NCBI GenBank assembly: GCA_903822075.1
Contig: CAIJNK010000016.1
Location: 1 to 53,921 of the forward strand
Direction: 5' to 3'
DNA length: 53,921 bases
DNA from: an uncultured bacterium
GTDB taxonomy: Bacteria > Patescibacteriota > Minisyncoccia > Phycocordibacterales > GWA1-40-21
Shown here: piece by piece, positions 9,628 through 12,494 of the stretch
Numbering within the stretch: position 1 is the first letter of the stretch
Layout of the letters: each line of letters begins with the position of its first letter
Program-made: the position numbers and the translations under genes
The notes under the pieces: model-generated
Seen by the model: only the letters and a program-made list of their open reading frames with translations
Told to the model about the DNA's origin: nothing
Databases searched by the model: none

Positions 9628-10266
9628 ATGAATATGTGTATGTCTCTTGACCAAGGTCACCGGCAGGAGCTCCGGCAGGAACAGCGATTAACGCAAGAAC
9701 AGAGGCAAGAACTCCGAATGGCGGTTCTTGCTCTGCGCCTGGACTTAATCCAGGAAATTCACGGGCGAAAATACGTGATTGATGCCAACTGTCCGCAGTG
9801 TCGCCGGAAATTAACTCCGGTGGAGGTCATTTCAGGCTTTAACCAGAATCCGGACGATTACACCACCAGGTGTCCACGTTGCGCCCATCGTTTTGAGGCG
9901 CAGTTGGAGCACACGAGTGGCGGAATCAGTGAGTTTCTGATGCTCTACTGCCCCACCCAAACCTTGGCGCAACTGCGAGGGAAAGAGGGGTTGACGCCTG
10001 ATGATCTGATCCGCGATAATCCCTCAGCTTTCCACTCGGCAATTACTCACTTCGGGTCAATCAGTAATGCCTTTAAGGAAGCGGGGGTACAGTACCAACA
10101 CGAAGGTCTGTTGGATTGGAGAATAAAGGTGATACCCTTCCTTGGTCACCTCCCCGACAAAGAAATAGCCAACTGCGTCGGAGTTTCAAGTTTCGTGATA
10201 CGGACTTTGCGTAAGAAGCACCATATCGCGAGATTCGATAAACGCCGAGCACTCGAAGCTATCTGA
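9628..10266 (+). CDS. Zinc-ribbon and helix-turn-helix protein, putative DNA-binding regulator
   Basis: 212 aa. The N-terminus (about 6-45) is an amphipathic Gln/Arg/Glu/Leu-rich helix with repeated EQR/QEQR elements, faintly like region I of sigma-54. A zinc ribbon follows with CPQC (about 55-58) and CPRC (about 82-85). The C-terminus has an HTH-like segment, LPDKEIANCVGVSSFVIRTL, followed by a basic patch. DNA or RNA binding is likely; a regulatory role is inference. It is a single-gene unit with its own promoter, a very strong Shine-Dalgarno and a perfect terminator. No neighbour is clearly its target. Confidence 0.75.
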   Translation: MNMCMSLDQGHRQELRQEQRLTQEQRQELRMAVLALRLDLIQEIHGRKYVIDANCPQCRRKLTPVEVISGFNQNPDDYTTRCPRCAHRFEAQLEHTSGGISEFLMLYCPTQTLAQLRGKEGLTPDDLIRDNPSAFHSAITHFGSISNAFKEAGVQYQHEGLLDWRIKVIPFLGHLPDKEIANCVGVSSFVIRTLRKKHHIARFDKRRALEAI

Positions 10267-10279
10267 GATGTGGGAGTTG

Positions 10280-10318
10280 CAGCCGGTCCAAACTTGGACC
10301 GGCTGTTTTTATTTTTAT
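10280..10318 (+). terminator. Strong rho-independent terminator
   Basis: Arms CAGCCGGTCCAA and TTGGACCGGCTG (10280-10305), a 12-bp perfect stem followed by TTTTTATTTTT. It ends the zinc-ribbon/HTH unit. Confidence 0.92.
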
Positions 10319-10342
10319 ACTTTATTTAAAACAAACGAATAT

Positions 10343-10371
10343 TTGACTTATTACGTCTTGTATGATAGTAT
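10343..10371 (+). promoter_or_regulatory. Sigma70-type promoter of the receiver-like gene
   Basis: TTGACT (10343-10348), 17-nt spacer, TAGTAT (10366-10371). The leader is about 30 nt with AGAAGGAG ahead of the ATG at 10408. Confidence 0.7.
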
Positions 10372-10407
10372 TATTACCAGAATCAAACTCGAGAAGGAGA
10401 ATACGGA

Positions 10408-10785
10408 ATGAAGAAAGTACTGTTCATTGGAATACAGAGAATGTTTCTGGAGATTCTGGTTCGGAATATCCAGAAAAGAAGCCGAAAAAAAATAAGCGAG
10501 GTGTTTTTGGCCAATAACCCAAACGAGGCCATCACCATCGCCAAAGGTCATCCGGATATTTCCGTGGTGTTTTTCATGGGATATCTTGCCACAGCAAGAG
10601 CCGGAGAGGAGTTTCAGGCGTGCATCGGGGTGGCCGAAGAGCTCGGCAAAACCCTAAATAAGGGAGTGACAATGATTGCTGCCACCGGAAATAAGGCTAT
10701 CGATGCCGAATTACTCAAGCATCACTGTCAAATAGCCATCGCCGGGGAGCAGATTATCCCTTGGATCACGGAGAATATCTCCTGA
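10408..10785 (+). CDS. Receiver-like small protein (125 aa), probably non-phosphorylatable
   Basis: The protein begins KKVLFIGIQRMFLEIL and alternates short beta strands (VLFIG, EVFLAN, SVVFFMG, VTMIAATG, CQIAIAG) with helices, the pattern of a CheY-like receiver. The strand-3 position that normally ends in the phospho-acceptor Asp reads VVFFMGYL, so no conserved Asp is visible. It could be a pseudo-receiver or an unrelated Rossmann-like fold; the assignment is weak. The promoter, Shine-Dalgarno (AAGGAG) and terminator are all its own. It follows the zinc-ribbon/HTH gene but is separated by that gene's terminator. Confidence 0.6.
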   Translation: MKKVLFIGIQRMFLEILVRNIQKRSRKKISEVFLANNPNEAITIAKGHPDISVVFFMGYLATARAGEEFQACIGVAEELGKTLNKGVTMIAATGNKAIDAELLKHHCQIAIAGEQIIPWITENIS

Positions 10786-10909: not shown

Positions 10910-11362
10910 CTATTCAACGACGCTGGAGTGGCGCTGATAGGTGGTATCACCAACCTGCTCCGTATACCCTCCGCCTTCAATCTCCTTGATTGAGTGAACA
11001 TGAATGGTAGCTATCACCTTTCCCTCTTCGTGGTCAAAAGATACCATTTTTGGACCATCACCGGCATCGTCGCGAACCCGCAATGATTGATAACTGACAG
11101 ACTCGCCGTCTGGTAGTTCCCCGGAGTCATCGGTAAAATTCTTGAATACCAAGTCTTTACCTGAGCGAAAAACCAGAACAAAATTGCCAGCCGTCGTCGC
11201 AAAAACCCTCTCAATCTTCAGGCTCGTCAATTTCGAAATGACTTTCTTATTTGCCATTGTCTGAAAAGACGGGATAGCAATCGCGGCAAGTAAGCCGATA
11301 ATTGCTATCATGATAAAAAGCTCAACCAACGTAAACCCCGACTTCTTGTTCGTCAAGTTCAT
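10910..11362 (-). CDS. Type IV prepilin-like protein
   Basis: 150 aa from the ATG at 11362, with GAGAGG a few nt upstream; the TTG one codon earlier is less likely. The class III signal KKSG|FTLVE is present at residues 7-14 (cleavage after Gly9, Glu5 of the mature protein present), followed by one hydrophobic helix (about 11-32) and a short globular domain without cysteines. It should be processed by a prepilin peptidase and assemble into, or assist, a type IV pilus-like filament. No assembly ATPase, platform protein or peptidase gene is in the window. Unlike the LamG pseudopilin at 19401-20276 it has an SD leader and its own terminator. Confidence 0.88.
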   Translation of the reverse strand: MNLTNKKSGFTLVELFIMIAIIGLLAAIAIPSFQTMANKKVISKLTSLKIERVFATTAGNFVLVFRSGKDLVFKNFTDDSGELPDGESVSYQSLRVRDDAGDGPKMVSFDHEEGKVIATIHVHSIKEIEGGGYTEQVGDTTYQRHSSVVE

Positions 11363-11423
11363 CAATTATCCTCTCTGTTAAATACCAAGACACAGATGAG
11401 ACCACCCCACCTTTCTGCTTTCT

Positions 11424-11451: not shown

Positions 11452-11492
11452 GTACATGACTTGAATTAGAAAAAAGTGGTATAATCTTCATT

Positions 11493-12053
11493 ATGTTAAA
11501 AGAAACAAAACCAACCATTCAAACTAACACCCAGAACATCACCGGCCTGCATGCCGGCATTTTTGGTGACTTTTCCAATCTACGAGGTGATGTTTCTAAA
11601 ATCACCGGTAACTTGAACATCCATAAAATTACCGGTGATACCTCAAAAATTTCCGGGCAGATAGATGGCGTCTCTGGCGATGTAAGCAACATTAGCGGGG
11701 ATATAACCGATATCATTGGCGATACTTCAAATCTGCGCGGGCTTATCTCCCCGCTCTCAGGTGATATTAGCGGCGTGGTCGGTGATGTCTCAAACATCTC
11801 CGGTGACGTAACCAATATTCACGGAGACGTTAGCCATATCAGCGGGAACACTTCCAATATTATCGGTGATGTCAGTGACCTGTCAGGTGATGTCAGCCAT
11901 CTTAAAGGTAATGTCACCGATCTTCGAGGTTATGTCAGCAATATTTCCGGCCTGGTGACTAATGTCAAAGGCGACGTGACAAATATTTTTGGCGATGTCA
12001 CCGGTCTCGAAGGTGATGCGTCAGATCTGGAAGGTGATGTCCATAATCGATAA
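11493..12053 (+). CDS. Heptapeptide-repeat protein (GDVSNIS-type repeats)
   Basis: 186 aa. After a 17-residue Thr/Asn/Gln-rich start, residues 18-186 consist of 22 complete 7-residue repeats, one 9-residue variant at 39-47 and a 6-residue end. The consensus is G-[DN]-[VTI]-[ST]-x-[IL]-x: Gly is invariant at position 1, beta-branched or aliphatic residues recur at 3 and 6, Ser/Thr at 4. Such regularity suggests a beta-solenoid or extended fibre. There is no signal peptide, membrane helix or cysteine, so it should be cytoplasmic unless exported by an unrecognised route. TATAAT (11480-11485) ends 7 nt before the ATG, so the mRNA is probably leaderless. Function unknown; antifreeze-like, scaffold and fibre roles are all only possibilities. 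Confidence 0.9.
   Translation: MLKETKPTIQTNTQNITGLHAGIFGDFSNLRGDVSKITGNLNIHKITGDTSKISGQIDGVSGDVSNISGDITDIIGDTSNLRGLISPLSGDISGVVGDVSNISGDVTNIHGDVSHISGNTSNIIGDVSDLSGDVSHLKGNVTDLRGYVSNISGLVTNVKGDVTNIFGDVTGLEGDASDLEGDVHNR
11544..12050 (+). repeat. Degenerate 21-bp tandem coding repeat
   Basis: The heptad repeat appears in DNA as degenerate 21-bp units, commonly starting GGTGATGTC or GGCGATGTC. Third positions differ widely between units, so the array is old or selected for protein sequence rather than a recent slippage product. Confidence 0.9.
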
Positions 12054-12056
12054 ATA

Positions 12057-12079
12057 GAAAAACCCGCACTAGGCGGGTT
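12057..12079 (-). terminator. Terminator at the end of the Nfu_N-like gene
   Basis: AACCCGC (12061-12067) and GCGGGTT (12073-12079); on the minus strand followed by TTTCT. The stop codon of the gene lies inside the hairpin. Confidence 0.75.
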
Positions 12080-12494
12080 TGGTCACACTACTCTCCACTG
12101 GCGGCGCAGTGGCCTTTTTCATTGCTCGCCGACGCAAGCGGTATTTCGGTCTGGCAAGCTGTGGAATAGCCTCGCCTTTATTGAAATCCTGACTTAGGTT
12201 GGCGACAATCTGCGGAACAAGAACTCTCCAAGAAAACATCTCACCCTTATCCACACTGATGCTGTAGATATCATAGTGGACATCTTTGACTCCGTTCACC
12301 TGCAGGATATGTGCCAGAAACTTCGGCACTCTTTTTTCACCGAAATTTTGCCCAATGATAGTGTCCTTATCAGAATCGTCATCATCTTCCCAGGTAGGCG
12401 ACGAATTAGAATAATCGATCGCACACAGCCGAAAATCAACATGGATTATTATGGAATTCGGGTTGCCTGTCCTCTTAACCTTGTAATGAACCAT
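12069..12494 (-). CDS. Stand-alone Nfu/NifU N-terminal-like domain protein
   Basis: 141 aa. The start GNPNSIIIHVDFRL and the later VPKFLAHILQVNGVKDVHYD...ISVDKGEMFSWRVLVPQIVANL match the layout of the Nfu N-terminal domain (PNPNSLKF..., SPLAxxLFxIxGVxxVF, ITVxKxxxxxWxxLxPxI). An acidic insertion (EDDDDSDKD) sits between the two blocks, and the C-terminus is basic and Ala/Pro-rich. The C-terminal NifU domain with its CxxC cluster ligand is absent and no cysteine pair is seen, so direct Fe-S transfer is unlikely. The start at 12494 is set by AAAGGAGG 5 nt upstream. Own promoter (TTGCTT-18-TAATAA) and terminator. Confidence 0.7.
   Translation of the reverse strand: MVHYKVKRTGNPNSIIIHVDFRLCAIDYSNSSPTWEDDDDSDKDTIIGQNFGEKRVPKFLAHILQVNGVKDVHYDIYSISVDKGEMFSWRVLVPQIVANLSQDFNKGEAIPQLARPKYRLRRRAMKKATAPPVESSVTKPA

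Follow-up and report, generated by a model that had tools for sequence, protein, structure and literature searches.

Proteins built from very short repeat units are known in several forms. Pentapeptide proteins such as Qnr and MfpA consist of a short unit with inward hydrophobic residues next to Asp or Asn, and they form a short rod. The beta-rolls of the YadA head and of grass ice-binding proteins are made of repeats of approximately 14 residues, which would equal two heptads. The Lpp leucine zipper (PF04728) and the coiled coils of phage tail needles have a heptad spacing, and bactofilins (PF04519) are small cytosolic beta-solenoids with irregular windings and short flexible ends, for which the N-terminal consensus MFSKKKK was reported (PMC12448750). 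Here we describe P0001, a protein made almost wholly of heptapeptide units that is encoded in a window of 53,921 nucleotides (the whole stretch of DNA analysed) from an uncultured member of the Patescibacteriota. Neither Pfam nor NCBIfam nor PADLOC contained a family that fits P0001, and PHROGs yielded only cross-matches between heptads, among them those to minor head and tail needle proteins, which we do not take as indication of a function. The first-pass annotation had called the unit distinct from pentapeptide, hexapeptide and LRR repeats, and no curated repeat family survived membership testing. P0001 is similar to Qnr and MfpA in its short unit, its inward hydrophobic positions with adjacent Asp or Asn and its predicted short rod. 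Membership in the pentapeptide family with its A(D/N)LXX unit was rejected on the basis of the period of seven, an identity of 0.01 at a shift of five residues, the invariant Gly and the lack of a Pfam pentapeptide match. A literature search, the coverage of which leaves most subscription journals and preprints outside, did not turn up a heptad solenoid of this kind. The heptad repeat is unusual, deeply conserved and undescribed in the libraries searched, while the beta-solenoid itself is a known class of folds.

Re-translation of the gene reproduced exactly the unit count of the first-pass annotation. By register, residues 18–186 divide into 22 units of seven residues, a nine-residue unit and a six-residue unit (154 + 9 + 6 = 169 residues), and Gly opens all 24 units (Table 1). 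Shifting this region against itself by 7, 14, 21 and 28 residues gave identities of 0.41, 0.41, 0.34 and 0.36, and all other shifts of 29 residues or fewer gave 0.01–0.13. For Gly, the signal at a period of 7 reached 17.1, compared with a maximum of 13.6 after shuffling; for hydrophobic residues, it reached 29.9 at a period of 3.5 (shuffled maximum 16.6). The mean unit, taken from 421 windows in 19 orthologues, reads G (1.00), D/N (0.79), V (0.59) or I/A/T/F, S/T (0.82), N/G/D (0.73), I/L/V (0.96) and a variable last residue. Position 3 was hydrophobic or Thr/Cys in 93% of 419 units and position 6 was hydrophobic in 99.8%. The residues G, N, D, S, T, V and I account for 76% of P0001, which contains no Cys. 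Its 19-residue hydropathy peaks at only 0.91, indicating that it has neither a membrane helix nor a signal peptide, as had been noted before. A hydrophobic leader or membrane helix was absent from all 19 orthologues, in which Cys is almost absent as well. P0001 is acidic with a net charge of –13, but the range of –14 to +3 over the 19 orthologues shows that charge is not conserved.

Conservation along the protein is not uniform. In the start motif, H20, G25, D26 and F27 are invariant across the aligned orthologues, and the same start motif recurs in other parts of the phylum as well as in phage proteins. Nearly all orthologues keep the nine-residue unit in the form G(D/N)xxxHK/RI. In the end motif, E173 and G174 are invariant and T177 is present in at least 90%. 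Internal conserved spots are D91, S93 and the unit GDVTNIR at residue 104. Orthologues extend a few residues past the final unit, often with a terminal Lys (ELLSKK, EELIK).

Table 1. Positions in the window of the heptad-repeat gene, its putative promoter and its parts.
Feature	Position	Strand	Description and basis
Putative promoter	11456..11485	+	–35-like ATGACT (11456), 18-nt spacer, extended –10 TATAAT (11480–11485); consensus match
Heptad-repeat protein gene (P0001)	11493..12053	+	186 aa; 18 orthologues, purifying selection, tree follows taxonomy
N-terminal tail, residues 1–17	11493..11543	+	Consensus MxLxRIxPxxQxNTxN (alignment); predicted disordered, pLDDT ~45
First two units, residues 18–31	11544..11585	+	Start motif (V/I)TGLHxxI(W/F)GDFxxL; probable N-terminal cap
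Nine-residue unit GNLNIHKIT, residues 39–47	11607..11633	+	Two-residue insertion at unit position 5 (alignment columns)
17 regular heptads, residues 48–166	11634..11990	+	Predicted five-residue strands and Gly-Asp turns; unit composition
End motif GDVTGxEGDATGL, residues 167–180	11991..12032	+	Probable C-terminal cap (alignment)
Final partial unit GDVHNR, residues 181–186	12033..12050	+	Orthologue alignment

The 18 orthologues come from four families of the host class, and together with P0001 they form a set of 19 sequences of 186–196 aa that align nearly without gaps over the repeats, with unit positions kept. In a genome search, 6 of the 12 host-family genomes each had a single clear orthologue. 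The 297 genomes of the host order yielded 15 matches, some partial or weak; 10 of the 16 f79 genomes had an orthologue, and a single full-length copy came from another family of the class, f120. Relatives in the rest of the phylum were weak or of different build. Two of the orthologues are in GenBank-type records, CAIKXE010000008.1 and PLOL01000026.1, of which the second bears the label Patescibacteria. The gene is missing from about half of the host family and from 95% of the sampled order, and this patchy presence suggests that its role is dispensable, though useful. Pairs of orthologues had an identity of 0.57 in register versus 0.39–0.43 when shifted by whole units, indicating that the units multiplied long ago and then evolved in place. 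Between copies from the same genus, dN was approximately 0.19–0.22 with saturated synonymous sites (pS 0.74–0.77), and judged from these sequences the gene is under strong purifying selection. The orthologue tree requires 7 label changes for 8 taxonomic groups, which is the minimum possible and fits vertical inheritance with many losses. The P0001 gene is a real and old gene inherited in one group of Patescibacteria.

In the window, genes for a histidine kinase (3356), the acetate kinase AckA (4239), the phosphoketolase Xfp (5816) and a second histidine kinase (8213), all on the minus strand, are followed by ORFs at 9628 and 10408 (both plus), a pilin-like gene (10910, minus), the repeat gene (11493, plus), an ORF at 12069 (minus) and typA (12630, plus). 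A same-genus genome (L004) has the order kinase-ackA-xfp-repeat gene-typA, in which 9628, 10408, the pilin-like gene and 12069 find no match and the second histidine kinase is matched solely by a paralogue of the first. Since this genome has the same flanking genes, xfp and typA, but lacks the orphans, the repeat gene is the old resident around which the orphans were inserted, and the earlier view that it sits in an orphan island did not hold. The gene adjoins xfp again in L006, and in L005, from another genus, xfp and ackA come after it. Neighbours vary by family, with xfp in part of the host family, a P-type ATPase and a membrane-fusion-like protein in f39, and undecaprenyl-diphosphatase or RsmE-like genes in f79 (names in f39 and f79 were read by eye from the sequence). 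No conserved operon partner was found across the families compared, and because the neighbouring genes differ from family to family, none is indicated. In the distant family f79 (L045, 2–1276), the repeat gene adjoins typA/bipA in opposite orientation, which may be chance or old synteny. The orphans of the window (9628–10785, 10910–11365 and 12069–12494) have Shine-Dalgarno starts and are missing from the corresponding interval of L004. The protein encoded at 10910–11365 (minus strand, TTG start) is type IV pilin-like, with an N-methylation motif scoring 21.0 bits, slightly below the cut-off (PF07963). The 141-aa orphan encoded at 12069–12494 (minus strand) scores 28.3 for the NifU/Nfu N-terminal domain at a Pfam cut-off of 27, which may be chance.

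The putative promoter of the repeat gene matches 10 of 12 consensus positions, a TG precedes the –10 element, and TATAAT ends 7 nt upstream of the ATG. This spacing fits leaderless expression, in which transcription would begin at or beside the ATG. Same-genus orthologues likewise have a TATAAT 6 nt before the ATG. A perfect TATAAT ending 3–12 nt before the start was found for 8 of the 43 window ORFs examined, xfp among them; the ORFs at 9628, 10408, 10910 and 12069 carry Shine-Dalgarno sequences instead. The leaderless arrangement put forward in the first-pass annotation is consistent with this TATAAT spacing, and the same applies to the phosphoketolase and other window genes.

AlphaFold2 predicted a regular beta-solenoid with five-residue strands (V3–S7), two-residue turns (G1-D2) and no helix in two runs. 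For P0001 (19 sequences), mean pLDDT was 70 and pTM 0.61, with residue blocks in 71–180 mostly at pLDDT 73–91 and residues 1–50 mostly below 50; the run for an orthologue with 56% identity (L014, 21 sequences) gave the same pattern with a pLDDT of 72. These values refer to one of five models per run with a pLDDT of about 70, the remaining four lying at 48–62. AlphaFold2 is known to over-predict beta-solenoids for repeat sequences, confidently even for random ones (PMC11795689), and for this bias its solenoid must be discounted. Foldseek gave no match at E ≤ 0.001, and its lists contained mostly right-handed beta-helix proteins. P0001 has the worst helix propensity among 39 window proteins, and insertions and Pro sit at unit position 5 or close to the G-D turn. 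A folded core is to be expected because positions 3 (with Thr or Cys allowed) and 6 are kept hydrophobic, and both composition and conservation, as read from the sequences, favour beta structure over a coiled coil. We consider it quite probable that P0001 folds as a beta-solenoid. The first-pass annotation had suggested a narrow beta-solenoid or fibre and had named a prediction of disorder as counter-evidence. The solenoid part is in line with both AlphaFold2 runs, biased as this method is, which predicted a solenoid and not disorder, whereas a fibre is unsupported because the length is fixed at 186–196 aa in 19 sequences. Unit-to-unit similarity, used as a test of the coil period, was weakly positive at lags 1, 2, 3 and 5 and did not decide between two and three heptads per coil. 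Assuming 4.8 Å per coil, the rod would be approximately 6 nm long with two heptads (14 residues) per coil or approximately 4 nm with three (21 residues).

The 3–4 spacing of the hydrophobic positions, equivalent to a period of 3.5, would also be expected of a trimeric coiled coil with V3 at a and I/L6 at d, forming a helical stalk like those of phage tail needles or Lpp, and because of this spacing sequence searches point to coiled coils. The Pfam model LPP gave the sole Pfam score above threshold for P0001 (30.5 bits, cut-off 29.1), weaker matches to helical families occurred in all 19 members, and profile matches in the PDB were mostly to coiled coils, including tail needle gp26 (E 3.6e-10) and a conserved membrane protein (2.8e-9). 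However, the Gly of every heptad would occupy the outermost position f, where a coiled coil needs none, which makes this reading very unlikely. Helix-poor residues would also fill g (Asp/Asn) and c (Asn/Gly/Asp), Pro occurs within units (GLISPLS, GDPSHIR), and the heptad is interrupted where one or two extra residues are inserted. P0001 differs from Lpp and the tail needles in these features and in its beta-type composition. Membership in the Lpp family was rejected given the absence of Cys, lipobox and hydrophobic leader, the Gly in each heptad, the poor helix propensity and the lack of a predicted helix. Alternatively, P0001 could be disordered or fold conditionally, the solenoid being an artefact of AlphaFold2. 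The documented bias of the program (PMC11795689), the wide spread of confidence between models and the low pLDDT at the conserved N-terminus point in this direction. We regard it as unlikely, since the conservation of two hydrophobic positions, the invariant Gly, the fixed length and the strong purifying selection are all unlike what is seen in disordered repeats.

A function as nucleic-acid mimic or gyrase-type inhibitor similar to Qnr and MfpA, with the phage relatives acting as counter-defence morons, would agree with the acidity of P0001, in which Asp at unit position 2 would line up charges, with the presence of pentapeptide proteins low in the Foldseek lists, and with short phage relatives encoded away from the structural module, close to an SSB gene in L055 and between replication and lysis genes (read by eye) in L057. 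Against the background of a charge that varies between orthologues, Foldseek E-values of 0.35–0.5 for Qnr and MfpA and a PADLOC search in which no defence model fitted P0001 and the 19 members gave a few isolated weak matches, this is quite unlikely. Surface beta-rolls are built from repeat units of roughly the size of the heptad unit, and the grass ice-binding beta-roll model PF21300 gave a weak match to P0001 (E 0.036). Its score of 14.6 bits is far below the cut-off of 30, and this assignment was rejected, as was YadA head/Hep_Hag, which was not among the Pfam matches at E ≤ 10. The beta-rolls of both groups are exported and have Gly and hydrophobic spacings unlike P0001, and with no leader or membrane helix in any of the 19 orthologues an adhesin, fibre or ice-binding protein at the surface is extremely improbable. 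Finally, the unit and the start motif shared with phage contigs, together with the orphan genes flanking the window copy, could suggest recent capture of a phage gene by the bacterium. This is highly unlikely in view of a tree that follows host taxonomy, a position between xfp and typA common to the genus and a leaderless promoter of the host type; an ancient exchange between phage and bacterium may have taken place.

Our preferred reading, to which we assign a probability of about 0.5, is that P0001 is a cytosolic, leaderless, fixed-length solenoid rod that acts as a scaffold or docking surface. In this single-copy protein of Patescibacteria, heptads of the form G1-D/N2-V3-S/T4-N5-I/L6-x7 would wind into a short capped beta-solenoid, with G1-D2 as turn, V3 and I6 pointing inward and S/T4, N5 and x7 on the outside. 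The result would be a rigid rod of about 4–6 nm that offers a specific surface. A single rigid rod of set length is suggested by the fixed unit number, unit positions and ends, and a specific surface by the conserved residues at both ends and in particular internal units. The scaffold or docking role taken by itself is tentative. Possibly the rods join end to end, or a short hydrophobic-plus-basic N-terminus tethers them as in bactofilins, but membrane tethering or polymerisation is rather unlikely. Like bactofilins, P0001 is small and cytosolic, with short flexible ends and a predicted beta-solenoid; unlike the irregular windings of bactofilins, its units are exactly seven residues long. The N-terminus in the P0001 family (MLKR, MTLQR, MALQR) is hydrophobic and then often basic, and resembles the bactofilin tether in kind. 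PF04519 matched neither P0001 nor the orthologues in profile searches, and bactofilins were found in none of 12 host-family genomes, while control genomes gave matches. We treat the similar N-terminus and the absence of bactofilins from the family as a lead by analogy. It is rather speculative that P0001 represents an unnamed class of exact-heptad (GDVSNIx) beta-solenoids with defined caps in Patescibacteria and phages, whose bacterial members serve as bactofilin-like cytosolic scaffolds or filaments in cells lacking bactofilins.

If the solenoid is real, the short repeats known from beta-solenoids would gain a class of seven residues. It would have a natural cap at either end, and its members of constant and of variable length could be compared, which would be useful for fold theory and protein design. 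The family is a good natural test of the AlphaFold2 solenoid bias, because the conservation of units in place speaks for folding independently of the prediction. In Patescibacteria, the family provides a conserved cytosolic protein as scaffold candidate in cells where no bactofilin was found (12 family genomes).

Relatives of the repeat, for which the first-pass annotation had suggested a profile search, occur in both Patescibacteria and phages. The P0001-type unit GDVxxIx is encoded on the viral contigs L003, L057, L059, L061, L062 and L065 and in UOF80481.1 of MW202691, and the phage repeat proteins are annotated as hypothetical proteins, i.e. they are unnamed. They share the start motif GDxSxIWGDAxxI or a near variant, and several share the end GDVTGxEGDV(T/E)xL; they differ from P0001 in their variable unit number, in having several repeat domains per protein and in added helical parts. 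Near-identical copies on three contigs (L057, L063, L064) vary in heptad number, indicating that phages readily change the number of units, which is constant in the bacteria. Among the short relatives, the protein of L057 has the start motif LTGIHxxITGDFSNIYGD, and MW202691 encodes GDCSSLx units, with Cys at unit position 3 of UOF80481.1 and an SSB gene nearby. L059, L061 and L066 carry the repeat domain or domains inside larger proteins, with the start xxTGDxSxIWGDA and often the end GDVTGxEGDVTGLEGDVEDL. Large phage proteins with at least one GDVSxI repeat domain joined to partly helical parts were observed in these three and in L067, L069 and L073, and IMGVR_UViG_3300049009_000811 has at least three loci of GDVSxI repeat domains on one contig. 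On a plasmid (NZ_CP077697.1, 15118–15429), a weak match with 39% identity over 67% of the query lies in a gene for an S6 family peptidase autotransporter (Salmonella), so that the heptad unit may be present in an exported passenger domain. In L062, two AGGDIxAGGxI-type repeat proteins (59–424 and 1351–1911) are encoded beside a GDVTDI-repeat gene (2244–2936), so that a single phage has genes for different repeat proteins clustered together.
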